Origin: Chryseolinea sp. H1M3-3 | Lineage (GTDB): Bacteria; Bacteroidota; Bacteroidia; Cytophagales; Cyclobacteriaceae | NCBI RefSeq assembly: GCF_029360725.1 | Contig: NZ_JARKMY010000002.1 | Coordinates: forward strand, 620,001-684,000 | Length of the DNA stretch: 64,000 nucleotides | Direction: 5' to 3' | Shown: piece by piece, positions 20,684 to 63,813 of the stretch | Position numbering within the stretch: the stretch's first letter is position 1 | Layout: every line of letters begins with the position of its first letter | The notes under the pieces: model-generated | The model's database searches: none | What the model saw: only the letters and a program-made list of their open reading frames with translations | Told to the model about the DNA's origin: nothing | Made by a program: the position numbers and the translations under genes

Positions 20684-20685
20684 AT

Positions 20686-45220: not shown

Positions 45221-46711
45221 TTAAAAATAAGGACTCAATGCAGCTTCATCCGCCGGAAGTGCGTAATACAAATCTATATTAGTAAACGCATGACTCCGGG
45301 GAACAGCGCCGGCAGGATAATAGTAGTCCAGCGGATTTGATTTGATCCGTGCCCCATAAGCAGTAATAACGTCAACCGCCCGGCCTGTTCGAACCAGGTC
45401 AAACCAGCGTTTATTTTCAAAAGCTAATTCAACCCTTCTCTCATGATAAATCGCTTCACGCATATCACCCTGCGCAGCCCCTAGACCTGCACGCTCACGC
45501 ACGAGATCCAGATACATAGAGCCGTCTTTGCCTTGCTCATTTAAAGCTTCAGCCAAAAAGAGGAGCACTTCTGAATAGCGATATATCGGCCAATTGGTAC
45601 CGTGGTTGTTATGCAAAGCATGGGTTTTAGCAAATTTCTTAATGTAAGGATACACCTTATCATCCCGCAAACTTCCGCTTAAGGTAATATAAGCGATGGA
45701 CGCATCTTTTCTTTCATCTCCTGGTTCATAAGCGGCAATGATATCCGGTGTTGGAATATTATTTCCCTCTCCAGTAAGTGGCTGCGCATTGGAAGTCCCG
45801 GTTATCGTTTTAAGTTCATCGGAGGTCATCGGGCGCGGTAAGAAATTATATATGAACGTTCCGTTAAGCCCCGCGGATCCTTCCAGAAACTGAACTTCAA
45901 ACACCGATTCCATATTGTTTTTATTTCCAGTAGAGGTGGAAAAAACTTCAGCGTAGTTGGGTATCAACTGATACTCATTACTATTAACAACTTCCATCAA
46001 GAGAGACTCTGCTTCAGCCCATTTTTTTTGTACGATGTATACATTGGCCAATAACGTTCTGGCTGCACCTGATGTAGCCCGGCCTGCTTCTTGTGCAGAT
46101 TTGAGCGGTAACAAATTAATTGCTTCTGTTGCATCGTTTATGATCTGCGCATATATCTCTTCTTCCGAAGCCAATGGTAAAGCAGCACCTTCGCGATTTT
46201 CTACAGGCTCCAAATGTAAAGGTACTTTTCCGAAATAACGGACAAGCTCGAAATAAGCGAAGGCTCTCAGAAAATATGCTTGTCCCTTTAAGTTATTCTT
46301 CGAGGCCTCACCAAATTCCACATCGTCAATAAGCGCTAAGACCTGATTTGTGCGTGATATAATTTGGTAGTCCAACCGGTATTGATTCAATACGTGTGTA
46401 TTGGAGGTAACACCGCCAGCTACAGGAATAGCAAAATCAGCAATGTCCTCTTGTTGCTCTGTGGCACCAAAAAGGATATTTCTGGCATAGTAAGTATTAT
46501 CAGAGTGCATCTCACCTAAGAGCCAGGCTCTGTCGTTAACAATGCTTCGAAGCGGAACGTATGCACCATTGACAGCTTGTTGAAAGTCGGCCTCTTTCGT
46601 AAAAAATGTAGCCGAACTCAAAGCGGTTTCAGGGACTATTGTTAGGAATTCATCTTGGCAGCTTGTAAGTAAAAAAGTCACAAGCCATATAAATATGATT
46701 TTCGTTTTCAT
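45221..46711 (-). CDS. SusD/RagB-type outer-membrane nutrient-binding lipoprotein
   Basis: The 496-residue lipoprotein (lipobox LLTSCQDEF) has the SusD helical TPR scaffold: EADFQQAVNGAYVPLRSI, YFLRAFAYFELVRYFGKVPL, and the late WPIYRYSEVLLFLAEALNEQ and RRVELAFENKRWFDLVRTGR. It caps the SusC barrel at 46760 and captures the substrate. It lies 48 bases downstream of susC. The ligand (glycan, peptide or other) cannot be told. Confidence 0.92.
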   Translation of the reverse strand: MKTKIIFIWLVTFLLTSCQDEFLTIVPETALSSATFFTKEADFQQAVNGAYVPLRSIVNDRAWLLGEMHSDNTYYARNILFGATEQQEDIADFAIPVAGGVTSNTHVLNQYRLDYQIISRTNQVLALIDDVEFGEASKNNLKGQAYFLRAFAYFELVRYFGKVPLHLEPVENREGAALPLASEEEIYAQIINDATEAINLLPLKSAQEAGRATSGAARTLLANVYIVQKKWAEAESLLMEVVNSNEYQLIPNYAEVFSTSTGNKNNMESVFEVQFLEGSAGLNGTFIYNFLPRPMTSDELKTITGTSNAQPLTGEGNNIPTPDIIAAYEPGDERKDASIAYITLSGSLRDDKVYPYIKKFAKTHALHNNHGTNWPIYRYSEVLLFLAEALNEQGKDGSMYLDLVRERAGLGAAQGDMREAIYHERRVELAFENKRWFDLVRTGRAVDVITAYGARIKSNPLDYYYPAGAVPRSHAFTNIDLYYALPADEAALSPYF

Positions 46712-46759
46712 GTTTGTGGATAAGGTGTTAATGGATAATTCTTTCCAATGGCCTGGTGA

Positions 46760-49700: not shown

Positions 49701-49957
49701 TAGTCGCCATTTGAACCTGTAGTTGTTCCATTCGTCGTACCCTTTTCCAGGATGTTAGCGCCAGGGACGGCCTCTCCGTTTTCATCAACGACACGGCCGC
49801 TTACGCTGAAAGCTGGAATGGGTCCGAGGGCCTGAACCTGAAATGAACTGGCAGCCAATAGCACCAGTGCCAACATGAACTTTACGTGAATATTTTCTTT
49901 GTTAAATAGCGTAAAATGAGGGAGGTATCTCACATCATACGGTTGAGATTTTTTCAT
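46760..49957 (-). CDS. SusC/RagA-type TonB-dependent transporter
   Basis: The 1065-residue protein has a long signal region, a carboxypeptidase-regulatory-like domain (FSVSGRVVDENGEAVPGANI) and the SusC hallmark LSEVVVVGYG. The plug follows (GRLAGVQINQATGKPGQGMS, DPLFVVDGFPI, ILKDAASTSLYGSRAANGVV), then a large barrel ending YTLGVNLNF. It imports a nutrient across the outer membrane with the SusD protein at 45221. No sigma/anti-sigma pair, hydrolase or regulator accompanies it, so this is a minimal, orphan pair. Confidence 0.93.
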   Translation of the reverse strand: MKKSQPYDVRYLPHFTLFNKENIHVKFMLALVLLAASSFQVQALGPIPAFSVSGRVVDENGEAVPGANILEKGTTNGTTTGSNGDYQLNVSDGNATLVISFIGYATQEIAVNNQTVINVSLVLDTQALSEVVVVGYGSQLKKEITGSVQTVTSKDLKDIPVSQVTQKLQGRLAGVQINQATGKPGQGMSVRIRGQLSVTGGSDPLFVVDGFPITGNIGSINPDEIEDITILKDAASTSLYGSRAANGVVLITTKKGKSGQTTVSFNTFVGFQKVPMKGRIQMMDAVEFAQFKKEYYEDAGQPVPDVFQDPSQYEGKNNDWYDALLRTAPVQSYNLTIGSHRDKISTALVAGVFNQQGVVLNNEYKRYSLRMNTEYEISDKVKVGFNIAPSYVFDNTPRTDGDRGTGILFNALHTWPIMPIYDENGELTMFNRFPGNTGNIFAYANWVRSAEELVNETKTINLLSNAFLEYSPIKGLVLKSTFNAELLSSKFFFFNPSTATSSINVPLPTTAVSIRENVDNVAWLNENLATYSRTFNNNHNFELLAGFTTQQFRQEVSRIMADTYADDRLPTIQGAININRATNTANLFTARTSVGANTGSGVQEWSLTSFLSRLTYNYKGKYLLTAAVRSDGSSRFGSKNRWGTFPSASLGWLVSDESFLKNVDKISFAKIRTSYGVTGNNNIGNYTQYALINNTVNAVFGSNVAPGSVVTSLSNPNLGWETTKQFDVGMDLGLFNDRVQLVYDYYVKNTTNLLYSVQIAQESGFTNYNDNIGEIKFWGHEVALTTQNTTGKLRWTTNANISFNRNKVIALADGIDRVYGTFNITKVGHPFGQFYGHQAQGVYLNAADLANSPQVPGRSTVGSIKLTDQNGDGIITNGGDNDDRVILGNPFPKFIYGITNTLNYGKFDFTIVGSGSYGNQLLARHLYSTANLDGVFNLLKEVKYRFRSEDNPGKGFFGTTVGGGNVTGIERDWMNSRYIVDASFFTIKNITLGYNISAANKFFKSARIYASVQQVYVFTNYWGGPNPETSAQGDGQGDGGNLSQGLDLSNYPVPRTYTLGVNLNF

Positions 49958-51210: not shown

Positions 51211-51427
51211 TGTTCACGCACACTTTCTTAACATTGGCGCATTCATTCTGAATCGATATTTAATGAGATTCATCATAATCCGATAGACAAAGAAAATTCT
51301 TGATGATGTTACATCTTTCATCACAATAAAAATTCTAATTTGTCAGGTTGCATTTTGCTAAATATGACAAATTATATTGTGTTTGATTGGTTCACTTCTT
51401 CCTTCCGTTTTCCAAATTTCTTGGCTT
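51211..51427 (+). repeat. Direct repeat, left copy (promoter and 5' end of a TPR gene)
   Basis: This 217-base stretch recurs at 53173-53390 with about nine-tenths of positions identical by eye, including an exact block of over 50 bases around 51312-51367. It covers the upstream region and first codons of the TPR gene at 53327. Confidence 0.8.
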
Positions 51428-51540
51428 TCGATTTTGGCCTCTTAATAATGGGGAGAGGTTTCTCAAGAAGGCGGTGGATTAGCCACCGAGAATTCCGGCG
51501 TTGGAACAGCTTCTGCTTTTATAATATATTGATCAATTAA
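51428..51540 (+). pseudogene. Decayed remnant of a TPR receptor gene (body)
   Basis: The remnant begins in the left repeat (ATG at 51364, matching the start of the 53327 gene: NYIVFD and FTSS then FLAF). The similarity jumps near 51463 to a segment (CTCAAGAAGGCGG and following) that corresponds to about 54284 in the intact gene. A large internal deletion is therefore likely. The frame ends at 51540 after 59 codons from that ATG and no TPR domain remains. It is best read as a broken sixth copy. Confidence 0.6.
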
Positions 51541-51578: not shown

Positions 51579-53168
51579 ATGAAAACCACCCCGTTATTCC
51601 TTACTCGTTTTATTTTATTTGCTGTCATCGTATCCTTCACTCTCAATAATTCGGTCGTCGCTCAAAATCATAAAATAGATTCATTAAAATTAAAGCTAGA
51701 TAGTTCTGTTGGTGGTCAGCGGTGTGATGTATTGATAGATCTTTCTATAGCGTATTTCGGGGAAGGGATTAGTCTGACGGCATTCGACTATGCGAATGAA
51801 GCACTACAAATCGCTCAGGCCACTGCAGATACTCTGAAGCTTGTAAAAACCGTGCGGTTAAAGGCTAGAATATTTAGAACACTAAATCAAATTGACTCCT
51901 CGTTGATCTTGTTGCATGACATTTTGCCGATAGCAAAGAAAAAAAGGTATTTCGATGAAATAGGATTTATACTGAACGGATTAGGTATTTCGTACAATCT
52001 TCAAGCACATTATGATTTGGCTTTGAAATATTATTTTGAAATGTTAGAATATCCCGCAGGGTCGGGCGGCATCACGGAAGAAGTGCGACTATTAAATATT
52101 GGGTTCGTGTATTATAAGTTAAAAGAATATCGCAAAGCGTTGGAGTATTTGGACGACGCTTTGTGGGTAACAAAAAAAGATAAACGATTTACATTTTATG
52201 AACAATTACTAATTAATATAAGCCTCTGTAATGCTCAAATAGGTCACACCGCTGAAGCTCGAAAATATCTTAGAGAGGTTGAGGAACGTTGTGAAATTCT
52301 ATGCTCTAAAGAGACTGAATTGAGTTATCAATATGCAATGGGTGTTTGTTCTATGAAGGAGGAAAGTCTTTTTACGGCAAAGCAACATTTTTTGATATCC
52401 TATTCCCTGGCGAAGGAGACGAATTCTGAGCGTTTGAAGCTGGACAACATTATCTTGTTGTCCGAAATATGCATTCGTCAGAATAGTTGGAATGAAGCAG
52501 AGTTTTATTTAGGTGATGCTGAAAATATTATTTCCGAGGGTTCTCCATATAACCGTGAATTAATTAAGGTTTATTCACAGTTAATTTCCCTTTACAGTAA
52601 ATCTAACAATACAGAGAAAATGACTTTATACCAGCAGAAATATATACAATTGAAGGATAGCATCTATAGCGAACAGTTAACAACAAATCTGATGAGAATT
52701 CATGCAGACCATCTTGAAAAAGAAAACAAGGCCCGTATAGAATCCCAAAACAAGATTTTAGCACTCAATGAAGGAGTAATTCATCAACAAAAGATTGCCA
52801 ACGTTTCTATTGGAGGAGTCGCGGTGCTGCTTGTTCTTCTCACAATCCTTCTCGCTAAAAACAATCACCAACGAAGAAAAATGAATGCGCTGCTCGATAA
52901 AAAAGTCAAAGAAAGAACCCGAGAATTGGAAATGAATCAAGATAATTTGCAACGAGCGTGGGATGAACGCGATGTTCTCATAAAAAAAGCATCGGAAGGT
53001 ATCCAAAGTTCGATTGCTACGATTAGAGGCCTTTCATCTTTAGGTGAGAGGGAAATCGATCATCCTAAAGCCTCTGAATATTGGAGTGAACTAAATATTA
53101 CGTCAATTCGTCTTGCCTCAATACTTAAAAAAATCAATTGTTCAAGTAGACACGATGTTACAGTTTAG
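51579..53168 (+). CDS. TPR receptor with degenerate, histidine-less kinase domain (copy 1)
   Basis: The 529-residue protein has a signal peptide (ending SVVAQ) and a periplasmic TPR array (about 30-380, for example FVYYKLKEYRKALEYLDDAL). A short coiled coil, one membrane span (about 407-426) and a cytoplasmic coil (KVKERTRELEMNQDNLQRAW) follow. The C-terminal segment aligns with the HisKA domain of the PAS kinase at 19346, but the phospho-acceptor His is E473 and no ATPase domain follows. Its last 140 residues are nearly identical to copy 3, while the TPR part differs. A Cys pair (C238, C242) lies in the TPR domain. Role inferred: sensing subunit that cannot phosphorylate by itself. Confidence 0.78.
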   Translation: MKTTPLFLTRFILFAVIVSFTLNNSVVAQNHKIDSLKLKLDSSVGGQRCDVLIDLSIAYFGEGISLTAFDYANEALQIAQATADTLKLVKTVRLKARIFRTLNQIDSSLILLHDILPIAKKKRYFDEIGFILNGLGISYNLQAHYDLALKYYFEMLEYPAGSGGITEEVRLLNIGFVYYKLKEYRKALEYLDDALWVTKKDKRFTFYEQLLINISLCNAQIGHTAEARKYLREVEERCEILCSKETELSYQYAMGVCSMKEESLFTAKQHFLISYSLAKETNSERLKLDNIILLSEICIRQNSWNEAEFYLGDAENIISEGSPYNRELIKVYSQLISLYSKSNNTEKMTLYQQKYIQLKDSIYSEQLTTNLMRIHADHLEKENKARIESQNKILALNEGVIHQQKIANVSIGGVAVLLVLLTILLAKNNHQRRKMNALLDKKVKERTRELEMNQDNLQRAWDERDVLIKKASEGIQSSIATIRGLSSLGEREIDHPKASEYWSELNITSIRLASILKKINCSSRHDVTV

Positions 53169-53172
53169 TAGA

Positions 53173-53390
53173 TGTTCACGCACACTTTCTTAACGTTGGC
53201 GCATTCATTTCTGAGTTGACATTTAGTGAGCTTCTTCATCATCCGACACACAAAGAAAATTATTGATATCGGCACATCTTTCATCACAATAAAAATTCTA
53301 ATTTGTCAGGTTGCATTTTGCTAAATATGAAAAATTATATTGTGTTCGATCGGTTCACTTCTTCCATTCGTTTTACAAATTTCTTGGCTT
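53173..53390 (+). repeat. Direct repeat, right copy
   Basis: The right copy of the repeat first seen at 51211-51427. It covers the upstream region and the first about 21 codons of the gene at 53327. Confidence 0.8.
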
Positions 53391-55000
53391 TTGTGATTTT
53401 TGGGTTGATACTTTCCCACCATAAGGGAGTCAGCCAGTCGCATGGAATTGATTCGCTTAGAAAGTTGCTCCCATCGAAGATTGGCCAGGAATATTATGAG
53501 GTTCTAACGGAGTTGGGATATCAGTACCTGGTCGCAAATGACTATGATAATGCGATGAAGCTTAGTAATGAATTAATCTCGGTGGGAACGGAGGGATCAG
53601 ACAGTTTACAGCTTACGCGTGGTTTAGCGATTCATGCGTCGTTACTGAGGCGATCAGGCTTTATTGATTCAGCGCTGTTGTTGTACAATAAAATTTATCC
53701 CATCGTCAAAAGAAATAGTTATGAGACAGAATGGATGAATATTACAAATAGCCTTGGTTTATTATATGCTTATCAAGGTAATTATGACAAGGCTTTACGG
53801 TATCTCTTGGAATCATCAGAGATACGGGAAAAACGTGGTGTTAAGTATGACATCAGCATCGTACAACAAAATATCGGGTTTGTATATTATAAACTAGGAA
53901 ATTTTGAAAAGGCCATTTCTTTTTATGAAAGAGCCAATGGATTAAGAAGAGAAATCGGGAACAACGAGGGTAGGGATATTCTTTTGGTAAATATGAGTCT
54001 GTGTTACAGTAATGGCAAGAATTTCGTTAAAGCAAAAGCATATTTAGATGAAGCCTTTTTACTTAGCGGTAGAGATTTGTCTGTTGATTTTCTAATGACT
54101 GCCCATTATGGTTTAGGTTTTATGTTTTTTAACCAAAACGACTTTTTGAACGCTGAGCCAGAATTTCTACGGTCATATTCAGAATCGGTGAAAAGAAATA
54201 GCATCAGATATCAATTGGATAATATAGATGCTTTGTCACAAATATATCTTCACAAGAATGACTTACGAATGGCAGAAAAGTATCTCAAGAAGGCGGAGAT
54301 TCTAATCGCCGAGGATTCCCGATACAAGTTAGAATTAGCGGGTATCTATAGAACATTCTCCGAACTTTATCATAAGTCTAAAAATTATTCAAAAATTGTC
54401 TTCTATCAGGATAGACTTCTCGCATTGGAGGACAGCACATTTAATGACGAAATGACTAATAATCTTATGAAAGCTGAAGCGGCTCACCTTCAGCGTGAAC
54501 ACAGAAGTAAAATGGAGGATCAAAATAAGATAGTGACACTTAAAGAAGAAGTAATTTTTCGCCAGCAGGTTGTAAATTTTTTTATTGGAGTTGTTGCTGT
54601 CCTTGTGACCATCCTTGCATTAATCCTGGCAAAACGTAACAAGCAAAAACAATTTATCAATTCGTTGCTTGACGAAAAAGTTCGGCAAAGAACACGGGAA
54701 TTGGAAACTAACAGAGACGAACTACAGCGCGCCTGGCGGGAACGGGATGCACTGATCACTAAGGCAGCGACAGACATTAGAAGTTCCGTGGCAACCATGA
54801 AAGGACTTTGTTTTGCAGGGCTTAAAGACATTGACCATCCCAAAGCGCCGGAGTACCTTCAAAAAATGAACTTAACATCGGACCAATTGGGGTGTATACT
54901 CAATACAATTTTGTATTCGCCTAACAGAGAGCATTTCCAAAAAGACCTTACACGAGATGCATATATTTACATATCAAATGAGGAAAATGAAAAATCTTAA
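53327..55000 (+). CDS. TPR receptor with degenerate, histidine-less kinase domain (copy 2)
   Basis: From the ATG at 53327 it has 557 residues; an in-frame TTG at 53303 is less likely. Signal peptide ending KGVSQS, TPR repeats (LYAYQGNYDKALRYLLESSE, VYYKLGNFEKAISFYERANG), one span (VVAVLVTILALILAKRN), coil (KVRQRTRELETNRDELQRAW) and a HisKA-like remnant with T482 in the His position, followed by a retained Asp. No ATPase domain. This is the most divergent of the five. The tail RDAYIYISNEENEKS overlaps the start of copy 3. Confidence 0.78.
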   Translation: MKNYIVFDRFTSSIRFTNFLAFVIFGLILSHHKGVSQSHGIDSLRKLLPSKIGQEYYEVLTELGYQYLVANDYDNAMKLSNELISVGTEGSDSLQLTRGLAIHASLLRRSGFIDSALLLYNKIYPIVKRNSYETEWMNITNSLGLLYAYQGNYDKALRYLLESSEIREKRGVKYDISIVQQNIGFVYYKLGNFEKAISFYERANGLRREIGNNEGRDILLVNMSLCYSNGKNFVKAKAYLDEAFLLSGRDLSVDFLMTAHYGLGFMFFNQNDFLNAEPEFLRSYSESVKRNSIRYQLDNIDALSQIYLHKNDLRMAEKYLKKAEILIAEDSRYKLELAGIYRTFSELYHKSKNYSKIVFYQDRLLALEDSTFNDEMTNNLMKAEAAHLQREHRSKMEDQNKIVTLKEEVIFRQQVVNFFIGVVAVLVTILALILAKRNKQKQFINSLLDEKVRQRTRELETNRDELQRAWRERDALITKAATDIRSSVATMKGLCFAGLKDIDHPKAPEYLQKMNLTSDQLGCILNTILYSPNREHFQKDLTRDAYIYISNEENEKS

Positions 55001-56576
55001 GCCACTAGTTGTGCGCATTACGCAATGCATTTTCATTTTGACTTTTATGCTGATGAATAAGTCATTGGCGCAGAATCGCACAATCGATTCGTTAGAAGCG
55101 TTGTTGCATAGTTCCCATCCTCAAACGTCCGAAATTTTAGTGAAGCTTGTCTATGAGCATTTCGATAGTGGTGATCTTGATAAGGTCTTAAAATATACAC
55201 ATGATGGAATAAAAGCTGCTAATTCTTCCGGAGACACTTTGACCCTGGTGAAGATGGTTCGTCTCAAGGCACACGCTTTTAGAAATTTAAATAGAATTGA
55301 TTCTTCATTAAATCTACTAATGAGGATTTTACCTTTAGCTAAGGGGAATAAATATGTGGAGGAAATCAAGTTTATTTTAAATGGCATAGCTGTCTGTCAT
55401 ACCGTAAAAGCATCTTACGATCAAGCATTAAAGTATTATTTCGAAATACTTGAATTCCCTTTAGGTGCTCAAGGCGTAACTGAAGAGACAGTATTAGGAA
55501 ACATTGGCATAGTATATTATAAGCTCCAGGAATATCACAAAGCAGCAACCTATTTTAAGGATGCATTGAAAATAAGAGTAGTGAATAACAGATATTTTGG
55601 GTATGAAATGGAGTTAATTAATACAAGTCTGTGTTATGCGCATCTAGACAGTCTTGCTGAAGCCAAACGATATCTAAATCAGGCAAAGAGTTGGCGTAGT
55701 CAAGAGTTACCGCCTGAAGTGAAAATGTTATTTTGCAACGCCCTGGGTATTGTTTTGATGAAGGAAGGAAAGAACATTGACGCAAAGGCTCAATTTTTAG
55801 AATCCTATTCCCTTGCAAACCAAGTGAAGGATGAGAGACTTAGATTAGATAATATTATCTTATTGTCAGAAATATCCATTCAGCAAAATAGATTTAATGA
55901 AGCCGAAGGGTATTTACGTGATGCTGAGAGAACAATTTCTGAGGGGTCACCTTACAACCTAGAACTTATTAAGATTTACGCCCGATTAGTTTTTCTTTAT
56001 AGTAAATCCAACGATTATAAAAGAATGTCATTTTATCAGAACCGATATATCCAATTGAGAGACAGTGTTTATAACGAAGCAATGACAAACAACTTAATGA
56101 GAATTCATGCAGAACATCTTGAAAAAGAAAACAAAGCCCGTATAGAATCACAAAACAAAATCTTGGCTCTTAATGATGAAGTAATCCATCAACAAAAAAT
56201 AGCCAACGTTTCTTTTGGCGGAGCGGCATTTCTACTTGTTCTTCTCACAATCCTTCTCGCAAAGAACAATCTCCAGAGAAAAAAGATGAATGCGCTTCTT
56301 GATAAAAAAGTAAAAGAAAGAACTAAAGAACTGGAAATGAATCAAGATACTTTGCAACGGGCGTGGCATGAACGTGATGTTCTCATAAAAAAAGCGTCGG
56401 AAGGTATCCAAAGTTCCATTGCTACGATTAGAGGCCTTTCATCCTTAGGTGAGCGGGAAATCGATCATCCTAAGGCTTCTGAATATTGGAGTGAACTAAA
56501 TATGACGTCAACTCGTCTTTCATCGATAGTTAACAAAATGAGATTTGTAAATAAACAGGACACTACAGGTGATTAG
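54978..56576 (+). CDS. TPR receptor with degenerate, histidine-less kinase domain (copy 3)
   Basis: From the ATG at 54978 (54957 and 54987 are alternatives) it has 532 residues and overlaps copy 2 by 23 bases. Signal peptide ending KSLAQ, TPR array (VYYKLQEYHKAATYFKDAL), one span (GGAAFLLVLLTILLAKN), coil and HisKA-like remnant with E475 in the His position. The region from about the last TPR to the end is nearly the same as copy 1, even at silent positions, which points to recent duplication or gene conversion. No Cys pair is present at the position used by copy 1. Confidence 0.78.
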   Translation: MRKMKNLKPLVVRITQCIFILTFMLMNKSLAQNRTIDSLEALLHSSHPQTSEILVKLVYEHFDSGDLDKVLKYTHDGIKAANSSGDTLTLVKMVRLKAHAFRNLNRIDSSLNLLMRILPLAKGNKYVEEIKFILNGIAVCHTVKASYDQALKYYFEILEFPLGAQGVTEETVLGNIGIVYYKLQEYHKAATYFKDALKIRVVNNRYFGYEMELINTSLCYAHLDSLAEAKRYLNQAKSWRSQELPPEVKMLFCNALGIVLMKEGKNIDAKAQFLESYSLANQVKDERLRLDNIILLSEISIQQNRFNEAEGYLRDAERTISEGSPYNLELIKIYARLVFLYSKSNDYKRMSFYQNRYIQLRDSVYNEAMTNNLMRIHAEHLEKENKARIESQNKILALNDEVIHQQKIANVSFGGAAFLLVLLTILLAKNNLQRKKMNALLDKKVKERTKELEMNQDTLQRAWHERDVLIKKASEGIQSSIATIRGLSSLGEREIDHPKASEYWSELNMTSTRLSSIVNKMRFVNKQDTTGD

Positions 56577-56629
56577 ATGTGGGCACTTCGATGGAATGTG
56601 ATAAAATATTATATCATTATGTTAAAAAA

Positions 56630-56704
56630 AGCCAACTGACAGGGCAAACTTTTCTGGGGGGATAGCACACAAAAGAAAAGTTTTTTTACGCCCTGCAGTT
56701 GGCT
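56630..56704. terminator. Two-tier stem-loop after copy 3
   Basis: Outer arms 56630-56645 and 56690-56704 pair over 15 positions with one bulged base. Inside, AAACTTTTCT (56646-56655) pairs perfectly with AGAAAAGTTT (56674-56683), and this inner stem is followed by T-runs. The inner stem alone would be a normal intrinsic terminator; the outer stem is extra and gives an attenuator-like or small-element appearance. Confidence 0.6.
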
Positions 56705-56747
56705 CGAACAACACTTAACAAAGTTGCCGACAACGGTGTCCGTATAT

Positions 56748-56870
56748 TCACGAATTGGTTACATAGATGAGTAGTATTAAAGAGACGAGTAGGACACATA
56801 CCATCAAAATAAAATTCATTCGTTTGGCTTTTTGTAGCCCTCTCTTCATATGACGAATGTTATCTTCCAT
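56748..56870 (-). CDS. 40-residue single-span membrane protein
   Basis: On the minus strand the frame reads MEDNIRHMKRGLQKAKRMNF, then one hydrophobic span (ILMVCVLLVSLILLIYV) and TNS. Basic residues precede the span, as in a type II or small inner-membrane protein. It lies in the gap between copy 3 and the response regulator, opposite to both. The composition is convincing; the function is unknown. Confidence 0.45.
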   Translation of the reverse strand: MEDNIRHMKRGLQKAKRMNFILMVCVLLVSLILLIYVTNS

Positions 56871-56956
56871 TCAATTACTTTGTTTTTTTCGAAAGCTAAT
56901 GAACAAACATCCGCTATCAACATCGTTAATTAGTTTATCAGGAAAACCAGACAAAC

Positions 56957-56969
56957 AATTTGTCAGGTT
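56957..56969 (+). promoter_or_regulatory. Shared 13-base motif AATTTGTCAGGTT before the regulator
   Basis: The same 13 bases occur at 51337-51349 and 53300-53312, upstream of the decayed copy and copy 2. Here it follows GACAAA to form GACAAACAATTTGTC, a 6-bp inverted repeat at 56950-56964. It is a candidate binding site common to the locus. Confidence 0.4.
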
Positions 56970-57030
56970 TATGTTGTTACTGCCTACTTTTACATGACTC
57001 ATTAAGGAAGATTTCTAAAAGTATAACGCA

Positions 57031-57660
57031 ATGACAAAATTAAATTTCTTATTAGTAGAAGATGAAGCCTTGATAAGAGAAGGCCTTCGATCGTTGTTGG
57101 AGAAAGAAAATTTCATAAAGGAAATCCGCGAAGCTTCAAACGCAGGAGAATTCAAAGAGCAGTTGAAGAATGAAATTGATTTTGTATTGATGGATTTTCG
57201 TCTTGCAGATACAAATGGACTGAGTCTTCTTGCACTTCTGAAGAAAGAATCTCAACAACCGAAAGTAATTATGCTAACAGGTCTTGAGGGCACGGAGTTG
57301 CTGATGAACTTATTAAAAGCCGGGGTTAATGGTATTGTATATAAGTTAGATGGCTATAAAGAGATACTGAATACAATCAACGGGGTTTTGGAGAAAGGGA
57401 GTTATTTTTCACCAAAAATTCTAAACCTCATTCAAACTAATGCTCACCGATGGGACCAGGTTCCTCCGGTTGTCTTGAGTTTGCCTGAACGCGATCTTTT
57501 AAAAGCTATCGCGAGCGGCTATACGACAAAGGAAATTGCCTCGCTGTTGAAAATGTCAGATTCTACTGCTGAGACTTACCGGATTCGTCTCATTAAGAAA
57601 ATGGGTGTATTAAATACTGCAGGGTTGATTGCATATGCGTACCGAAATGGAATTTTGTAA
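57031..57660 (+). CDS. NarL/LuxR-type response regulator
   Basis: The 209-residue regulator has a receiver domain (LLVEDEALIREGL, phospho-acceptor D55 in VLMDFRLAD, Thr in VIMLTGLEG, Lys in VYKLDG). A LuxR/GerE DNA-binding domain follows (LPERDLLKAIASGYTTKEIA, SDSTAETYRIRLIKKMGV). It is a transcription factor switched by phosphorylation. The gene abuts the convergent kinase gene with no gap, and the TPR receptors lie on both sides, so it is the likely output of the locus. Confidence 0.92.
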   Translation: MTKLNFLLVEDEALIREGLRSLLEKENFIKEIREASNAGEFKEQLKNEIDFVLMDFRLADTNGLSLLALLKKESQQPKVIMLTGLEGTELLMNLLKAGVNGIVYKLDGYKEILNTINGVLEKGSYFSPKILNLIQTNAHRWDQVPPVVLSLPERDLLKAIASGYTTKEIASLLKMSDSTAETYRIRLIKKMGVLNTAGLIAYAYRNGIL

Positions 57661-58329
57661 TCACAATTTATAATCTACTTTGGCCAGCAATCCCTTTTCG
57701 CCATGATGATATTGGATAGAGGCGCCAATAGCTTGTGACCTTAGCTTGAGTGTATTGTTCTTTTTTCTTAGCCTTTCAATAAATTCTGAAATTTTGTTAA
57801 ACCCGCTACCGTCATCTTCTACTTCGATAACCAAGTTTTCATTTTTCCATTTTAGTCGCACCCATACATGCCAGGCAGAGGAATGTTTGAACGCATTATG
57901 AATGAGTTCTTGAATAATTCGATAGAGATACATTCGATTCAGATCAGGAATAGTTCGCTCTGTGCCCGTGCACTCATAGTAAATATTTCCAAAACCCGGC
58001 CTTTCGAGCGACTGACAAAGCATATCAATACTTGTATTGAGGGAATCATTAACGGTCTGTTCGGGAAGAAGTTTTCGGGATATTCTCCGCACCGATTGAA
58101 TCACGCTTTCAAAATCCGTGCGCATATTGATAAGCAACGCTTCTGTTTCCGCTGGATTATGTGCAGACCGTTCCAAGCGATCAAGGTAGAGTCTGAAGAT
58201 CGAAAGCTTTTGAATTAAATCATCATGCAACTCGGCCCCCATTTCGAGAATAATCTGGTCACAGATTTCAGCTGCTCGCTTGGAGATTTCGAGTTCAAAT
58301 TTTTTTCGAGAAGTGAAAATGACAGGCAT
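57661..58329 (-). CDS. Soluble HisKA_3-type sensor-less histidine kinase
   Basis: The 222-residue protein is essentially only a kinase core: HisKA_3 helix with ELHDDLIQKLS (His 35), linker, and ATPase domain with N-box ELIHNAFKHS and VEDDGSGF. There is no signal peptide, membrane span, PAS or TPR, so it needs another protein for input. It is convergent with the NarL-type regulator and divergent, by 46 bases, from TPR copy 4. It matches the kinase class that normally pairs with NarL-type regulators. Confidence 0.88.
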   Translation of the reverse strand: MPVIFTSRKKFELEISKRAAEICDQIILEMGAELHDDLIQKLSIFRLYLDRLERSAHNPAETEALLINMRTDFESVIQSVRRISRKLLPEQTVNDSLNTSIDMLCQSLERPGFGNIYYECTGTERTIPDLNRMYLYRIIQELIHNAFKHSSAWHVWVRLKWKNENLVIEVEDDGSGFNKISEFIERLRKKNNTLKLRSQAIGASIQYHHGEKGLLAKVDYKL

Positions 58330-58375
58330 TGCGTGGAGATATAAAATGGCTAATTTAAAAGGTAAGTATTAAACG

Positions 58376-59998
58376 ATGAAAGCAGTAAATATGGAAAGAA
58401 GATCGAATTGTGCAAGACTATGGGCAATAAGATGTTTTGTTATGCAGCTTGTTTTGATTCCTTTCTTTGCTAATTGTCAAAACGAAAAGATTGACTCGTT
58501 AAAATCTCTATTGAAGATAGAGGCTGACGGTGGTAAACAGATTGATATACTATTTCAACTTTCCCGGGAATGCCTTGATTTTAATAATGTGTTAGGGGCG
58601 GCCTACGGACGGATAGCTTTCATTAAAGCAAAAGACTTAGGCGACAGCTTCAGAATTGTCAAGACGGGAAGGATCTATTCTCAAGGTCTTCGAAGATTAG
58701 GTAAAATGGATTCAGCATTGATGGTTTACACAAAGGTACTTGCTGTGGCAAAGCGGCAAAATTACAATGACGAAGTTAAATATATATTGAACGGGTTAGG
58801 ATTGATTCATTTTTTTATGGGCCGCTATGATAAGGCTTTAGAGTTTAATTTTGAATGTCTTGATTTAAAAAAGAAAGATGGTGATTCGGTTGGAGTTTCG
58901 GTGACCTTAAACAACATCGGATTATTTTATCACCATCTAAATGATTATGAACGAGCCCTCTATTACTATAAAGAGTCATTGCGTTTAAAGAAGCTGATTA
59001 AGGACACTACTGATTTAGATGCTCTTTTACTCAATATGAGCCAGTGTTATGCACTTCAATTCAAGTTTAATGAAGCATTGCACTATGTCGATCGTGGGCT
59101 TAAAACGTGTGGTGGAAATTGTATTGACGAAACATTGATCATCGCGTATCAGACCTTAGGTTACATTTCGTATTTTAAAAAAAATTATAAGCACGCGGAA
59201 GTTCAATTTTTAAAGGCTTATTCATTATCTAATAAAAAAGGCAGCGAACGTTATAAACTGGAAAATATAAAATACTTAGTTAAGATTTGCATGGCTACTA
59301 ATGGGCTAAGTAAAGCAGAAAAATATTTGCAGGAAGCAGAAAAATTAATTTCGTCTGGGTCCCCATATAACGAAGAGATCCTTCAAATTTATGAGCAGTT
59401 GCATTCATTATACGCGAAGTTTCAAAATTTCAAAAAAGGGTATTACTATCAGAATAAATATGTAGTTCTCAAGGATAGTATTTACAATCATAAGCTAACC
59501 ACGAACCTTATGAAAATTCAGGCTGAACATCTTGAAAAAGAAAACAAGGCTAAGATCGAAGCTCAAAATGCAGTCCTGGTCCTCAATGAAGAAGTCATCC
59601 TCCGTCAGAAATACGTGAATGTATTTATTGGTATTGTTGCCTTATTACTGGTTGCCCTAGCCGTTGTTTTGTTCCGAAGTAATCGTCAAAAACAAAGGCT
59701 CAACCTGTTGCTTGATAGGAGGGTAAAAGAACGAACGCAAGAACTCGAATCAAGTCGCGATGTATTGCAACGTGCATGTGAGGAAAGAGATATTGTAATG
59801 ATAAGAGCAACCTCTGATTTAAAGAGGTCTCTTGCAACGATCAAAGGATTGTGCCTGTTGGGAGCACAAGACGCCGATGAGGCGCGACATTACCTGGAAA
59901 AGGTAGGCGTTATATCCGGCGCAGTTTCTGATGTTATAAATAAGCTTTCTTATAATAGTAAAACGCCCTTTTCTACCCATCAAAATTATATACGATGA
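58376..59998 (+). CDS. TPR receptor with degenerate, histidine-less kinase domain (copy 4)
   Basis: The 540-residue protein (58391 is an alternative start) has a signal peptide ending FFANCQ and TPR repeats (LIHFFMGRYDKALEFNFECL, LFYHHLNDYERALYYYKESL). A CxxxC pair (C245, C249) lies near mid-domain. One span (GIVALLLVALAVVLFRSN), a coil (RVKERTQELESSRDVLQRAC) and a HisKA-like remnant with S480 in the His position follow, then a retained Asp. No ATPase domain. It is divergent from the kinase gene with a 46-base shared promoter region and overlaps copy 5 by ATGA. Confidence 0.78.
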   Translation: MKAVNMERRSNCARLWAIRCFVMQLVLIPFFANCQNEKIDSLKSLLKIEADGGKQIDILFQLSRECLDFNNVLGAAYGRIAFIKAKDLGDSFRIVKTGRIYSQGLRRLGKMDSALMVYTKVLAVAKRQNYNDEVKYILNGLGLIHFFMGRYDKALEFNFECLDLKKKDGDSVGVSVTLNNIGLFYHHLNDYERALYYYKESLRLKKLIKDTTDLDALLLNMSQCYALQFKFNEALHYVDRGLKTCGGNCIDETLIIAYQTLGYISYFKKNYKHAEVQFLKAYSLSNKKGSERYKLENIKYLVKICMATNGLSKAEKYLQEAEKLISSGSPYNEEILQIYEQLHSLYAKFQNFKKGYYYQNKYVVLKDSIYNHKLTTNLMKIQAEHLEKENKAKIEAQNAVLVLNEEVILRQKYVNVFIGIVALLLVALAVVLFRSNRQKQRLNLLLDRRVKERTQELESSRDVLQRACEERDIVMIRATSDLKRSLATIKGLCLLGAQDADEARHYLEKVGVISGAVSDVINKLSYNSKTPFSTHQNYIR

Positions 59999-61563
59999 AA
60001 ATGTTAGATGCCTCAATTAAGGTAGTGCTAATCCTTGTTTTATTTTCAATCCAAGTCGATGTCTTTTCTCAAACACAAAAAATTGATTCGTTGAAATCTT
60101 TGCTGCCCCATCACAGTGGCGGGGAAAGAATAGATATTCTATTTGAGATTTCACGGCAATATTTAAATTCTAATCAGGCCGGAGGTTTATATTTTGCAAA
60201 AGAAGCATTTTCTGATGCGAAGGAGTTTGGGGACTCAATGAGAATTGTTAAAACGGGAAGAGTCTATGCACAAGGTCTTAGGAGGATTGGCAAACTTGAT
60301 TCAGCACAGATATTGTTGAAAAAATTATTAACAGTTGCGAGCCGGCATGCTTATCGAACGGAGATGAAGACCATTCTAAATGCTTTGGGTGTTGCATACC
60401 TAGACGGAGCAAAATATGATGAGGCACTGAAATTTTTCCTTCGTTCACTTGAATTAAGAGAAGAAGACAAGGATAAATGGGAAATAAGTGTTGCGTTAGC
60501 CAATATTGGATTGGTTTATCTTGGATTGGATTACTATGACAATGCGATACATTACTTTGATAGAGCAATCAAACTAAAAATTGATGCGGGAAGGATAGCC
60601 GATGATTTATACCTCGCTTTGATAAATAAAAGTATGTGTTTAGTTCGTCAAAAAAATTATCGGGAGGCACAGAAAGTTATCGGCAAAGTTCTTTCAGATT
60701 GCATAAATTGTTCAGAGAATATTCCAATTACCGGATATCAAACATTAGGACTAATTTCACTACAAGAGGGCGATCTAAATCTTGCCAAAGCAAGGTATCA
60801 GCATTCGTATGAGTTGTCAAGGAACTCTCAATATAAAAGGAATCACATCATTTCTTTAATCAATCTGATTGTGATCCATACGGATCTTGATGAATTGGAG
60901 TCTGCAGAAGATTATTTAAGAGAAGCCGAAATGCTAGCGAAAATCGGAAGTCTGTATAGTTATGAAATGAGTCATATGTACTTTCGACTTATTTTGGCTT
61001 ACCGAAAATTAAACAATATTGAAAAGACATCCTTTTATCAAGCAAAATATATCTCCCTCCGCGACAGCATTTTTAATGAAGACCTGGCCACCAACCTCAT
61101 GAAAATCGAAGCCGAACACCTTGAAAAAGAAAACAAAGCTAAGATAGAAGCGCAAAATGCAGTTCTCGCTTTAAACCAGGAAGTCATGCTCCGTCAAAAG
61201 TATATCAATGTTTTCATCGGCATTGTTGCATTGTTATTCATTGCTTTGATAACCATGTTGGTGAAAAGCAATAGACAGAAACAAAAAATCAATCAACTGC
61301 TGGATATGAAGGTGAGGGAAAGAACCCAGGAATTAGAGAACAACCGCGATGCACTGCAACGTGCTTGTGAGGAACGTGATATCTTAATCGATAAAACATC
61401 AAATGATATAAGAAATTCCATGGCTACAATAAAGGGATTATGCTCGGTGGGACTAAAAGATGTGAATGATCCTGTGGCCCTGCAATACATTGCAAAAATG
61501 GACAATGTCACAGATAAATTTTCGGCTACGCTCAGCATGTTATACTCGACCAAGCGTAAATGA
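59995..61563 (+). CDS. TPR receptor with degenerate, histidine-less kinase domain (copy 5)
   Basis: The 522-residue protein starts in an ATGA overlap with copy 4. Signal peptide ending DVFSQ, TPR repeats (VAYLDGAKYDEALKFFLRSL, VYLGLDYYDNAIHYFDRAI), a CxxC pair (C236, C239) where copy 4 has CxxxC, one span (GIVALLFIALITMLVKSN), a coil (KVRERTQELENNRDALQRAC) and a HisKA-like remnant with N470 in the His position and a retained Asp. No ATPase domain. Its C-terminal part is close to copy 4, so these two form a second related pair. Confidence 0.78.
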   Translation: MKMLDASIKVVLILVLFSIQVDVFSQTQKIDSLKSLLPHHSGGERIDILFEISRQYLNSNQAGGLYFAKEAFSDAKEFGDSMRIVKTGRVYAQGLRRIGKLDSAQILLKKLLTVASRHAYRTEMKTILNALGVAYLDGAKYDEALKFFLRSLELREEDKDKWEISVALANIGLVYLGLDYYDNAIHYFDRAIKLKIDAGRIADDLYLALINKSMCLVRQKNYREAQKVIGKVLSDCINCSENIPITGYQTLGLISLQEGDLNLAKARYQHSYELSRNSQYKRNHIISLINLIVIHTDLDELESAEDYLREAEMLAKIGSLYSYEMSHMYFRLILAYRKLNNIEKTSFYQAKYISLRDSIFNEDLATNLMKIEAEHLEKENKAKIEAQNAVLALNQEVMLRQKYINVFIGIVALLFIALITMLVKSNRQKQKINQLLDMKVRERTQELENNRDALQRACEERDILIDKTSNDIRNSMATIKGLCSVGLKDVNDPVALQYIAKMDNVTDKFSATLSMLYSTKRK

Positions 61564-61604: not shown

Positions 61605-61714
61605 TACGTTACCATTTCCTTTTGCGTTACCTCTATTGAACCATGTTCAGAGCGAGATTTGGGATGGATGACGAGGATTCTTATATTGAAAAGGTATTTC
61701 TATTTAACAATCAC

Positions 61715-62113
61715 ATGAAAATATCCGCATCCGTCAGCAGCAGGTATAATGAACACGTCACAACAGTGCAAACTAATGATGCTTCGCAGGAAGTGAAGAT
61801 TGCACCTAAATCTTCAGGGTATGGCTCATCTGTCAATGGGGGAGAGCTATTATTGCTTGCGCTGGCTACCTGCTTCTGCAATGATATCTACCGCGAAGCC
61901 AAGAAGCGAAATATTTCAGTCACAGAAGTAGATGTTGTTGTCACCGGCGAGTTTGGTGGGGAAGGAGAACCGGGTTTCAATTTTCAATATGAGACGAATG
62001 TTGTCTCCGACGCGCCACCTGAAGTAATTGAAGAATTGATTGAGTACACCGACGAGGTCGCCGAAATTCACAATACATTGAGGAAAGGAATTGATATTAG
62101 ACTTGTACGTTAA
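61715..62113 (+). CDS. OsmC-family protein
   Basis: From the ATG at 61715 it has 132 residues; an in-frame start at 61643 would add 24 residues unusual for the family. It shows the OsmC pattern with one conserved Cys region (LALATCFCNDIYREAKKRNI) and the end NTLRKGIDIRLV. OsmC/Ohr proteins reduce organic hydroperoxides through two cysteines. Here the second catalytic Cys of the usual VCP motif is not evident (NTLRKG), so peroxidase activity is uncertain. Confidence 0.75.
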   Translation: MKISASVSSRYNEHVTTVQTNDASQEVKIAPKSSGYGSSVNGGELLLLALATCFCNDIYREAKKRNISVTEVDVVVTGEFGGEGEPGFNFQYETNVVSDAPPEVIEELIEYTDEVAEIHNTLRKGIDIRLVR

Positions 62114-62223: not shown

Positions 62224-63813
62224 CTAATGCCCTCCTCGTTTCTCAAGTGAAAAAGCGACCTCATTCCTGAATGCCAGCGCCACACCATTCGTCCAGCCAA
62301 AACCGTCCTGGTTCGGATATTCACCGCCTCCGGCAATTAAAGTAGTATCCATTACGTTGTATTTTTCCATCATTTTACCTGTCGCTTCATAAACGCGCTC
62401 ATTCTGACGCAGCCACCGGTGCCGGATATCATTGGCAAGGTTATCCTGGTGATAATTTTTCAATCCCCTATACGCCATCCATTGCAGCGGCGCCCAGCCG
62501 TTGGGTGCGTCCCACTGTTGATCGGTATCGGCAACGGTGGTGACCAGTCCTCCTTCTTTCAGAAATTCTTTTTGGAGGGAGGAAGAAATTTTTTCAGCAA
62601 TATCAAGTTGGACCATTTCAAAGAATAGTGGATAAACCGCTGCTAATGATTTAATTCCGGTGCGCTTGTTTTCTTTAAAATCGTAATCCATAAAAATGTT
62701 GGCATTGGTGTCCCAGCAGAAGGTAAGCAACGCCCTTCGTCTGGCATTGGCGCGTTGCAAATATGGATCGCCAGCATTCTTGTTGCCACGGATGGCATAT
62801 CCGCGCGCGATCATTTTCTCCAAGTGGGCGAGCAGGCAGTTTAAGTCCACCGGGACAATGTCGGTTGTGTGAATCGTCTCAAGGGATTTTCCATCGCGGA
62901 ACCAACGGCTGCTAAAATCCCATCCTGATTCGGCTGCTGATCGTAAATCTTTGTAAATTCTTTTTTCTGCTCCCGGGTGTTTTTGAGCAAGTGCATAATC
63001 TTCTTTGTAAGCTTCTGGCCTTGGGCTTTCACCTTGGTCATAATAACGGTTCATGATGGTACCGTCGCTGAGCATGACCACATGTTGCGCGGCATCACCG
63101 GGTTGCTTTACAGAGTCGACACCGCGCATCCAGAATTGATATTCTTTAAGCATAGCCTCCAGGTAGTTTGAGGAGGCAAGCGAATCATAGTCTTGCAATT
63201 CATTTACAATCAATGAAAAGAACGGTGGTTGCGAGCGTGTTAAATAATAGTTCCGGTTACCGTTGGGAATAAAGCCGATAGTTTCAATCAAGTGGGCAAA
63301 GTTCTTTACCATATTCTGGATCAGGTCGTAACGCTTCTGCGATTTTAATCCGAGGATGGTGAAGTAGCTATCCCAATAATATATTTCCGAAAAGCGGCCG
63401 CCGGGCACAACGTAATCGTACGGCAAAGGGATAAGGGATGATCTTGGCTCGACTTCATCTGCCTTCCGCGTGAGTACGGGCCATAGTCTAGTAAGATGTT
63501 CCTCCATCGATAGGGTTGTATCGGTGGCATAGTTTGATTTGGGCCGCACGGGAAGATCAAAATTAAGGTGAACGAATTCGTTAAGGTCAAAGTCGGGCGT
63601 ACCTTGCATTTTATCATAATCTGCAACAATCTCAGTTAGGTCCCTTTTGGGTGTACAGTCGGCAAAGGTTTTGGAGTCGGGAAAAATAGCTTTTAACTGT
63701 ACATCATGGAAAAGAGATGATGTATAAAAATCGGTTTTAGAATCGCCTCGCTGTTCCTTCATTGTACAACTAAAAAATAGAACAGCCATGCTGATGATTA
63801 CGATACGTGTCAT
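62224..63813 (-). CDS. treA: Trehalase lipoprotein, glycoside hydrolase family 37
   Basis: The 529-residue enzyme hydrolyses trehalose to two glucose. It has a lipobox (LFFSCT), so it is probably anchored in the periplasm or outer membrane. GH37 signatures are PGGRFSEIYYWDSY and QWDAPNGWAP. The likely catalytic acid is the Asp in ESGWDFSSRW and the base is the Glu in GGGEYPNQDGFGWTNG. Length is normal for bacterial trehalases. It is not next to a sugar transporter; the SusC/SusD pair lies 12 kb away. Confidence 0.9.
   Translation of the reverse strand: MTRIVIISMAVLFFSCTMKEQRGDSKTDFYTSSLFHDVQLKAIFPDSKTFADCTPKRDLTEIVADYDKMQGTPDFDLNEFVHLNFDLPVRPKSNYATDTTLSMEEHLTRLWPVLTRKADEVEPRSSLIPLPYDYVVPGGRFSEIYYWDSYFTILGLKSQKRYDLIQNMVKNFAHLIETIGFIPNGNRNYYLTRSQPPFFSLIVNELQDYDSLASSNYLEAMLKEYQFWMRGVDSVKQPGDAAQHVVMLSDGTIMNRYYDQGESPRPEAYKEDYALAQKHPGAEKRIYKDLRSAAESGWDFSSRWFRDGKSLETIHTTDIVPVDLNCLLAHLEKMIARGYAIRGNKNAGDPYLQRANARRRALLTFCWDTNANIFMDYDFKENKRTGIKSLAAVYPLFFEMVQLDIAEKISSSLQKEFLKEGGLVTTVADTDQQWDAPNGWAPLQWMAYRGLKNYHQDNLANDIRHRWLRQNERVYEATGKMMEKYNVMDTTLIAGGGEYPNQDGFGWTNGVALAFRNEVAFSLEKRGGH

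Follow-up and report, generated by a model that had tools for sequence, protein, structure and literature searches.

A putative split sensor kinase in Chryseolinea sp. H1M3-3: five TPR receptors without acceptor histidine or ATPase domain linked to one soluble HisKA_3 kinase

We identified five genes (R1 to R5) encoding TPR receptors that end in a kinase remnant, together with genes for one soluble HisKA_3 kinase and one NarL-type response regulator, in the 64,000-nucleotide stretch of Chryseolinea sp. H1M3-3 DNA analysed here (the window; contig NZ_JARKMY010000002.1, positions 620,001 to 684,000; coordinates below are those of the window). This locus probably encodes a split sensor kinase, in which R1 to R5 feed the one soluble kinase and the regulator. 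The state of the TPR domain would be passed through the transmembrane (TM) helix to the cytoplasmic coil and on to the kinase (57661–58329), which would set the phosphorylation of the regulator (57031–57660); one kinase and one regulator would thus serve several receptors that differ in their sensors. What the sequences show directly is the architecture, the loss of the histidine and of the ATPase domain in the receptors, a single receptor clade, its linkage to the kinase in three of three genomes, the lack of a TM in the linked kinase, and a shift of conservation to the coil; physical contact, the direction of control, a ligand and kinase activity are what we infer in this scheme.

All five receptor ORFs are present and open on the forward strand, i.e., R1 (51579–53168; 529 aa), R2 (53327–55000; 557 aa from ATG), R3 (54987–56576; 529 aa; alternative starts at 54957 or 54978, an internal Met), R4 (58376–59998; 540 aa), and R5 (59995–61563; 522 aa). 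R4 and R5 overlap by 4 nt, and 46 nt separate the start of R4 from that of the soluble kinase. Pfam TPR_12 matched each receptor (E 1.1e-12 to 6.2e-28), and the coil and tail can be aligned across the copies, bearing out the shared build that an earlier note on this DNA had described; the signal-peptide-like start and single TM of the receptors are by-eye readings. In R1, a signal-peptide-like start and a periplasmic TPR region precede a TM at about 408–427 (by eye), a coil at 428–463, and a His-less DHp hairpin. A remnant of a sixth receptor (51211–51428, forward strand), comprising an upstream region and first codons, resembles 53173–53391, which spans the R2 start (37 nt at 97%, 183 nt at 89%).

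Alignment by hhalign of the seven receptor tails from three species with 16 intact relatives (99.4%, E 1.8e-21, 85 columns) places the homology of the tail to the DHp (HisKA) hairpin of intact kinases beyond chance, and on sequence comparison we consider it settled. The best match in the tail profile search was HisKA, and a different known domain was not found. Four of the seven single tails matched Pfam HisKA at E ≤ 1 (best 4.2e-5), while the R1 tail alone presented no Pfam match at this threshold; with whole proteins HisKA was found in R3 only (13.6 bits; cut-off 26.9), and none of the five reached the curated score of Pfam HisKA (PF00512). The predicted structure of the R5 tail (mean pLDDT 86.7) presents an unbroken helix from the TM through the coil into alpha-1, a turn, and alpha-2, with predicted helices at 2–84 and 89–117. 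Foldseek with a receptor tail, a bare helical hairpin and hence a poor query, gave no match at E ≤ 0.001; its list of weak matches contains histidine kinase entries (7ltq, 4biv, 4cti, 3zrv, and 6dk8) amid unrelated helical proteins. The kinase used as a reference in the earlier note (19346–20683) is a PAS-HisKA enzyme according to Pfam; an intact TPR-HisKA-HATPase kinase encoded elsewhere in the same genome, on contig C10, is much closer and serves better for comparison.

The acceptor histidine is replaced in all five receptors, as had been claimed; the column holds E473 in R1, T482 in R2, a glutamate in R3, S480 in R4, and N470 in R5 (codons at 52995, 54770, 56400, 59813, and 61402, respectively). 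The R3 residue, given previously as E475, carries this number if translation starts at 54978, and is E472 with a start at 54987 or E482 with one at 54957. The histidine is missing from all seven receptors, whereas all 16 intact relatives have it. Only 52–75 residues lie beyond this column in R1 to R5, and no HATPase match was found by Pfam at E ≤ 1, which agrees with the claim that no ATPase domain follows. Such a domain, encoded just downstream and lost by sequence error, was looked for by six-frame scan after R1, after R3, at the R2/R3 junction, and after R5, and was not found; all that the scan yielded was a pair of isolated hits to a loose N-box pattern, one lying within R5 itself. As R2 and R3, and likewise R4 and R5, overlap, a simple frameshift hides no domain at these junctions. 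The pseudo-DHp might instead bind directly to the NarL-type regulator, or to the kinase, as a decoy or sponge and thereby reduce signalling, which would make the receptors negative regulators. Receiver domains are the normal binding partners of DHp domains, and the predicted structure retains the complete hairpin; however, the usual partner of this regulator would be a HisKA_3 DHp, which belongs to another family, and the surroundings of the missing histidine are not preserved (the H-box G and P, like the H, are absent from all seven receptors), and we consider a decoy role very unlikely.

The soluble kinase (57661–58329, reverse strand; 222 aa) lies tail to tail with the regulator gene and is divergent from R4; it has neither a TM nor a sensor domain. 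HisKA_3 (32.6 bits; cut-off 24) and HATPase_c (40.0 bits; cut-off 26.4) were both found above their Pfam cut-offs. Its acceptor histidine, H35, is invariant across the 11 kinases compared, and the N box and G1 are kept. The ATP lid has lost its glycine motif (G2), with NNTLKLRSQ in place of the GRGL or GKGL of four paralogues and the GKGF of genome G065; by alignment reading, this motif is absent from the three receptor-linked kinases and those of G093, G118, and G119, and present in the other five of 11. Because of this loss, as read from the alignment, the kinase may be weak, phosphatase-only, or inactive. Over the N-terminal 60 residues, 19-residue hydropathy peaked at 0.22–0.58 in the three receptor-linked kinases, compared to 2.05–3.18 in the eight others, which have a TM and of which four form a more distant paralogue group (27–29% identity). 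Among the 15 family genomes matched, G044 was omitted from the kinase set, as a contig end truncates its frame. The open frames of the linked kinases comprise just 235, 225, and 232 aa and thus leave no room for an upstream TM. These three kinases are of common ancestry, so that loss of the TM may have been a single event.

In each of the three receptor genomes, a soluble HisKA_3 kinase without a TM is encoded at most three genes from a His-less TPR receptor; the earlier note had suggested a search for such neighbourhoods, and the tie of a soluble HisKA_3 kinase to such receptors is new. The regulator (57031–57660, forward strand; 209 aa) consists of a receiver and a LuxR-type HTH (Response_reg, 72.8 bits, cut-off 30.2; GerE, 39.9 bits, cut-off 23.5), and its identity is 82% in G015 and 73% in G120, the two other receptor genomes. 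In G120, the regulator gene stands apart from the receptor-kinase pair, after metG on a different contig, which weighs against the proposed scheme.

Conservation within the cytoplasmic part of the receptors has shifted to the coil. Mean pairwise identity among receptors was 0.60 in the coil, 0.58 in the juxtamembrane helix, 0.50 in DHp alpha-1, 0.38 in the TPR domain, and 0.29 in alpha-2, whereas the order is reversed in intact kinases (coil 0.44, DHp alpha-1 0.78); the best-conserved cytoplasmic part is therefore the coil in receptors and the DHp in intact kinases. Column shuffling (20,000 runs) never gave a coil/DHp difference as large as the one observed (0.407), and the true arrangement was the only one among 93 circular shifts to reach it. 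R464 is found in seven of seven receptors, while the same column holds L in 16 of 16 kinases; D455 is fixed in the receptors, and none of the 16 kinases has D there. For the R1/R3 pair, in whose cytoplasmic half dN/dS could be measured, values were 0.03–0.27 over segments that span the juxtamembrane helix through the DHp, so the receptors are not pseudogenes. The 3′ end of R3 closely resembles that of R1, with low dS between the two, probably as a result of gene conversion. It is conceivable that the receptors have no action on the kinase and are periplasmic TPR scaffolds, their tail a decaying leftover and the linkage historical; identity in alpha-2 (0.29) is below that of the TPR domain, and the likeness of the R1 and R3 tails comes partly from gene conversion. 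We consider this quite unlikely, as the coil and juxtamembrane helix are the best-conserved parts and carry receptor-specific fixed residues, and as G120 keeps kinase and receptor together although its regulator is elsewhere.

The receptors form one clade (support 100/100), in which R2 pairs with an N-terminal piece of a G015 receptor (support 100/99), and in the samples scanned were seen in the genus of the source only. The intact TPR kinase is present at full length in five of six genus genomes and adjoins metG; in G015, metG adjoins a receptor, and the last 33 residues of the intact kinase open the contig that bears both. An origin of the receptors as a within-genus duplicate of the intact kinase, suggested by this synteny, was set aside because the tree does not group them with the genus kinases and the AU test rejects such a clade (p 0.003), a result on which long-branch bias may act. 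The presence of an intact paralogue in the same genome, its wide retention in the genus, the joint occurrence in G015, and the complete DHp hairpin are all compatible with mixed dimers in which receptors bind the intact TPR kinase via coil and DHp and compete with or modulate it, in the way that RetS acts on GacS. Within the receptor tail, however, the DHp, which is the normal dimer interface, is conserved less well than the coil; the coils of receptors and genus kinases share a mean identity of just 0.29, R464 has replaced the L of the kinases, and in three genus genomes that carry the intact kinase, no receptor was found at the threshold applied. Such mixed dimers therefore appear unlikely. 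The interpretation offered in the earlier note stands in part: kinase-dead receptors that need a partner are well supported by the loss of the histidine (0 of 7 versus 16 of 16), by dN/dS, and by kinase linkage in three of three genomes, while the HisKA remnant is not the favoured route for mixed dimers or for docking, given the lower conservation of the DHp (0.50 and 0.29) than of the coil (0.60). For the split sensor kinase proposed here, docking by way of the coil together with the first part of alpha-1 would fit these sequence patterns better than HisKA-based mixed dimers.

The system is carried by three genomes, of which two are MAGs, one of these with its receptor cut at contig ends. A peptide-pattern scan for the kinase over 84,980 species matched 135 stretches and confirmed two relatives (G015 and G120), with two patterns derived from the three receptor-linked kinases, the two relatives included. 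With at most 10–11 candidates scored per genome, the tail profile matched two of 390 order genomes at E ≤ 1e-20 (our genome and G385, the latter through a single open frame of 691 aa) and one of 395 phylum genomes at E ≤ 1e-18 (our genome); the kinase was found in two of 241 order genomes at E ≤ 1e-20 (our genome and G065, 33% identity). Because the order and phylum sets are even samples of larger groups, in which neither G015 nor G120 was recovered, this rarity holds for the drawn genomes only. A receptor-alignment scan of genome contigs confirmed none of 281 stretches and was insensitive, since the collection includes two receptor genomes.

Between R3 and the regulator gene, the three-species alignment presented a stem-like non-coding element (56638–56698) that is similar in G015 and G120 and had no Rfam match; Rfam found nothing at the gathering score in the whole window and, at E ≤ 1 over four loci, one tRNA and nothing else. 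A small protein on the reverse strand (56748–56870; 40 aa, one hydrophobic stretch) occupies the same place in G015 (67.5%, tblastn over the loci) and is a possible accessory part. An inverted repeat before the regulator gene (56944–56970) is exact to pattern in G120 and altered in G015. Its half-site AATTTGTCAGGTT, allowing up to two mismatches, occurs five times in the window (3.15 expected), three of them exact. An operator role for the repeat was dropped because the 6.88 Mb genome has just one further exact copy, which sits between two convergent ORFs, is flanked on either side by A/T runs, and resembles a two-way terminator.

With the FimS-type TPR kinases of Bacteroidota (e.g., P. gingivalis), R1 to R5 share a TPR sensor in the periplasm and a single TM. 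The FimS model matched the TPR region of both receptors scanned, R5 at E 3.6e-19 (68.5 bits; cut-off 600) and R1 more weakly at 2.3e-8. FimS is described as a sensor kinase with eight periplasmic TPRs that carries its own kinase domain (PMC5706477); unlike FimS, the receptors lack acceptor histidine and ATPase domain, and the kinase is a separate protein. A separate membrane receptor, a kinase, and a NarL-type regulator also make up UhpC-UhpB-UhpA of E. coli, and by analogy our reading is that the present system works in a similar way. Among NCBIfam models, the kinase matched MctS best (E 1.7e-17) and then UhpB (E 4.3e-16), both far under their cut-offs, and the regulator matched UhpA (E 5.8e-15), again under the cut-off. 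PMC7607045 presents UhpC as a transporter-like receptor, separate from and driving UhpB, which has eight predicted TM helices. Here, by contrast, the kinase is soluble and the receptors are kinase-derived, and the likeness rests on linkage and kinase family.

The receptors combine kinase homology with the loss of catalytic residues, two of the three marks of pseudo-histidine kinases; the third, regulation of another kinase, is what the proposed scheme would assign to them. DivL, in which Tyr replaces the acceptor histidine, and an evolved ChrS variant with a frameshift in the CA domain are likewise kinase homologues that act without catalysis of their own. According to PMC9491836, DivL needs neither the histidine nor the ATPase domain, and in the ChrS variant the ATPase domain is disrupted and the histidine dispensable. 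DivL and ChrS are single proteins acting on full-length membrane kinases, unlike the natural multi-copy family identified here, which has lost both histidine and ATPase domain and has a putative soluble partner. RetS keeps the DHp and catalytic-domain folds, whereas R1 to R5 lack the ATPase domain. In the RetS-GacS pair, a kinase homologue controls a second one by forming heterodimers with it (PMC12189002). Literature searches confined to open-licence papers gave no description of a diversified multi-copy array of natural pseudo-histidine kinases that have lost both histidine and ATPase domain. In MCP-CheA-CheY, one soluble kinase serves several receptors that differ in their sensors and have a conserved cytoplasmic coil; unlike MCPs, R1 to R5 presented no MCP signalling domain among their Pfam matches at E ≤ 1, and the kinase is of HisKA_3 type and not a CheA.

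We propose that the receptor ancestor was a complete TPR-HisKA-HATPase kinase whose ATPase domain and acceptor histidine would have been lost, most simply once, before the receptor copies diverged. The receptors would thereby have given up phospho-chemistry, and the soluble kinase would have lost its own membrane anchor. That the system was split by such reciprocal loss, after which receptors multiplied and sensors diversified while one coil output was kept, with a CheA-like hub evolving afresh out of two-component parts, is a tentative account that we rate slightly short of even. If the split is real, the locus would represent a natural separation of two-component sensing and catalysis into two proteins, for which the intact relative, its synteny, and the membrane-anchored relatives of the kinase provide comparison material; it would allow a direct test of a receptor coil controlling a histidine kinase in trans, and of the evolution of many-to-one signalling.

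Pfam detected TPRs in each of the five genes at 51579-61563 (R1-R5), which are real and open, and found no ATPase domain in any of them at E ≤ 1, as the earlier note had claimed. That note had also read a loss of the acceptor histidine, and the comparison bears this out: the acceptor column presented E, T, E, S, and N in the window receptors and T in those of two other genomes of the same genus, probably Chryseolinea (G120 and G015), with H in 0/7 receptors vs. 16/16 intact TPR-HisKA-HATPase kinases; the H-box residues G and P were likewise absent from all seven. The intact set came from five genomes of the genus and eleven of the family; the kinase of G044 was left out because a contig end cuts its frame. 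Only 52-75 residues follow the acceptor column in the window copies. The tail of R5 was modelled as two helices joined by a turn, the first of them long and unbroken (mean pLDDT 86.7); the full model presented a helical solenoid continuing into this long helix (mean pLDDT 80.7), with best Foldseek matches to TPR structures, including LGN and NprR.

Homology of the tail to HisKA, as previously proposed, was recovered by hhalign with 99.4% probability (E 1.8e-21, 85 columns; seven receptor tails against the 16 intact relatives). The note had aligned the tails with the kinase at 19346-20683; a better reference is the TPR kinase on contig C10 of the same 6.88 Mb genome, which ranked directly after the five copies in a search with R3 (E 1.3e-59). 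This 711-aa protein presents a receptor-like layout followed by TSHDIRGPLASLKGMC and an ATPase domain region, with kinase models covering residues ~400-700; R5 has TSNDIRNSMATIKGLC in place of TSHDIRGPLASLKGMC. At 19346-21822 (minus strand), the PAS-HisKA kinase adjoins a protein with a FIST domain (FIST N, E 1.9e-43), and the two are perhaps a separate sensor/kinase pair.

Conservation was distributed differently in the two groups. DHp alpha-1 was the most conserved cytoplasmic part of the intact kinases (mean pairwise identity 0.78; coil 0.44), while in the receptors the coil ranked highest (0.60), followed by the juxtamembrane helix (0.58) and DHp alpha-1 (0.50); DHp alpha-2 (0.29) fell below the TPR part (0.38). 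The coil-vs.-DHp difference of 0.407 was equalled in 0/20,000 column shuffles, a p value that is indicative because alignment columns are not fully independent; apart from the true alignment, none of 93 circular shifts reached it, and omission of R1 gave the same outcome (0.422). R464 is fixed in the receptors, where 16/16 kinases have L, and D455 is fixed in the receptors and present in 0/16 kinases (one row gapped). This pattern suggests that receptor output runs through the coil and the beginning of alpha-1, and it counts against a preserved DHp interface. Kinase-dead receptors, as the earlier note described them, are upheld by the missing histidine and ATPase domain.

The HisKA_3-HATPase kinase at 57661-58329 has orthologues in G015 (83-84% identity) and G120 (61%), each with a receptor, or a piece of one, no more than three genes away; the nearest kinases in the other three genus genomes were 36-37% identical over the matched part. 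Among 11 kinases examined (the three linked to receptors; the nearest in G093, G118, and G119 of the genus and G065 of the order; four of a second paralogue group), a transmembrane segment was absent from 3/3 linked kinases (hydropathy maximum 0.22-0.58) and present in 8/8 others (2.05-3.18). In G093, G119, and G065, as in the window, the kinase gene converges on that of a receiver-type regulator; together with their membrane segments, this suggests that the ancestral kinase was probably membrane-anchored and sensor-less, and that the linked form lost the anchor. Sensor-less kinases with only a short membrane anchor were seen at the loci L097 7496-8999, L098 7734-9169, and L058 2228-3648, each convergent with a receiver-type regulator and with no adjoining TPR receptor seen. 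The window kinase retains H35, the N box, and G1; the ATP-lid glycine motif is lost in the three linked kinases and in those of G093, G118, and G119, which, judged from sequence, puts kinase activity in real doubt.

The intact kinase lies beside metG, with bioB further on, in the window's own genome (C10), G120, G093, and G118, and pth is beside metG in G093 and G118. In G120, the regulator follows metG, and the kinase and receptor adjoin pth; one G015 contig begins with the last 33 residues of the intact kinase, followed by metG and a receptor, and a second carries a receptor tail, a small ORF, the regulator, and the kinase. These arrangements suggest that the module probably formed between metG and pth; in the window's genome it is located away from that site, on contig C12, of which the window covers 620001-684000. 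NCBIfam confirmed metG (C10, G120, G093, G015), bioB (C10, G120), pth (G120, G093, G118), and prs (G093), and Pfam confirmed ribosomal protein L25 in G120; the remaining genes were named by eye through similar reading frames.

Between R3 and the NarL-type regulator (57031-57660), we identified a 40-aa protein with one hydrophobic stretch (56748-56870, minus strand), 67.5% conserved at the same position in G015; tblastn against the G120 loci compared did not recover it. A stem-like conserved non-coding element with a ACACAAAAGA-like stretch occurs in three species (56638-56698; L054 ~510-576; L055 ~9129-9184); Rfam gave no match to it. The inverted repeat AAACCNGACA..TGTCNGGTTT has exact copies at two genome sites, one preceding the regulator (56944-56970) and one, terminator-like, between convergent ORFs (contig C6, 58093-58117). 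The flanking genes, a SusC/SusD-like pair (45221-49957, minus), an OsmC-like protein (61643-62113, plus), and a trehalase (62224-63813, minus), showed no sign of belonging to the system.

Receptors were detected in 3/6 genus genomes at E ≤ 1e-60 (five in the window's own, one in G120, and an N-terminal and a C-terminal piece in G015), and a full-length intact kinase in 5/6. The three genomes carrying the system are related by shared ancestry. At their contig ends the two G015 pieces are identical over 141 nt, suggesting that the assembly was broken there and that G015 perhaps carries further receptor copies. Beyond the genus, the tail profile matched 1/389 other sampled genomes of the order (G385, a 691-aa frame) and 0/394 others of the phylum, with no confirmed receptor in either sample. 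The receptors form one clade (support 100/100) in which R2 pairs with a G015 piece (100/99), suggesting that receptor types were already distinct before those two species split; an AU test rejected a grouping of receptors with genus kinases (p 0.003), which suggests that receptors and kinases parted before the genus arose, or else that receptor evolution was fast. For R1 vs. R3, dN/dS was 0.03 in the juxtamembrane helix, 0.18 in the TM, 0.08 in the coil, and 0.27 in the DHp, while dS was saturated in the TPR part and then 1.21, 0.50, 0.65, and finally 0.27 (DHp), suggesting that the output end was gene-converted while the sensors diverged; saturated dS made the ratio unobtainable for most other pairs. 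The gene start of a sixth receptor copy persists as a 5′ remnant upstream of R1 (51211-51428), and turnover in the array continues.

Kinase homologues that act on other kinases without catalysis of their own have precedents in DivL and an evolved ChrS variant (PMC9491836) and in RetS (PMC12189002). The truncated form gave no heterodimer in the two-hybrid assay of PMC9491836, which argues against an easy analogy. As a sensor, the TPR part is FimS-like (PMC5706477). A mode of working like that of UhpC-UhpB-UhpA (PMC7607045) is proposed for the receptors, kinase, and regulator, although the origin of the receptors differs. On the sequence comparisons, a split sensor kinase, in which several receptors would serve one soluble kinase, is the best reading and a reasonably probable one.
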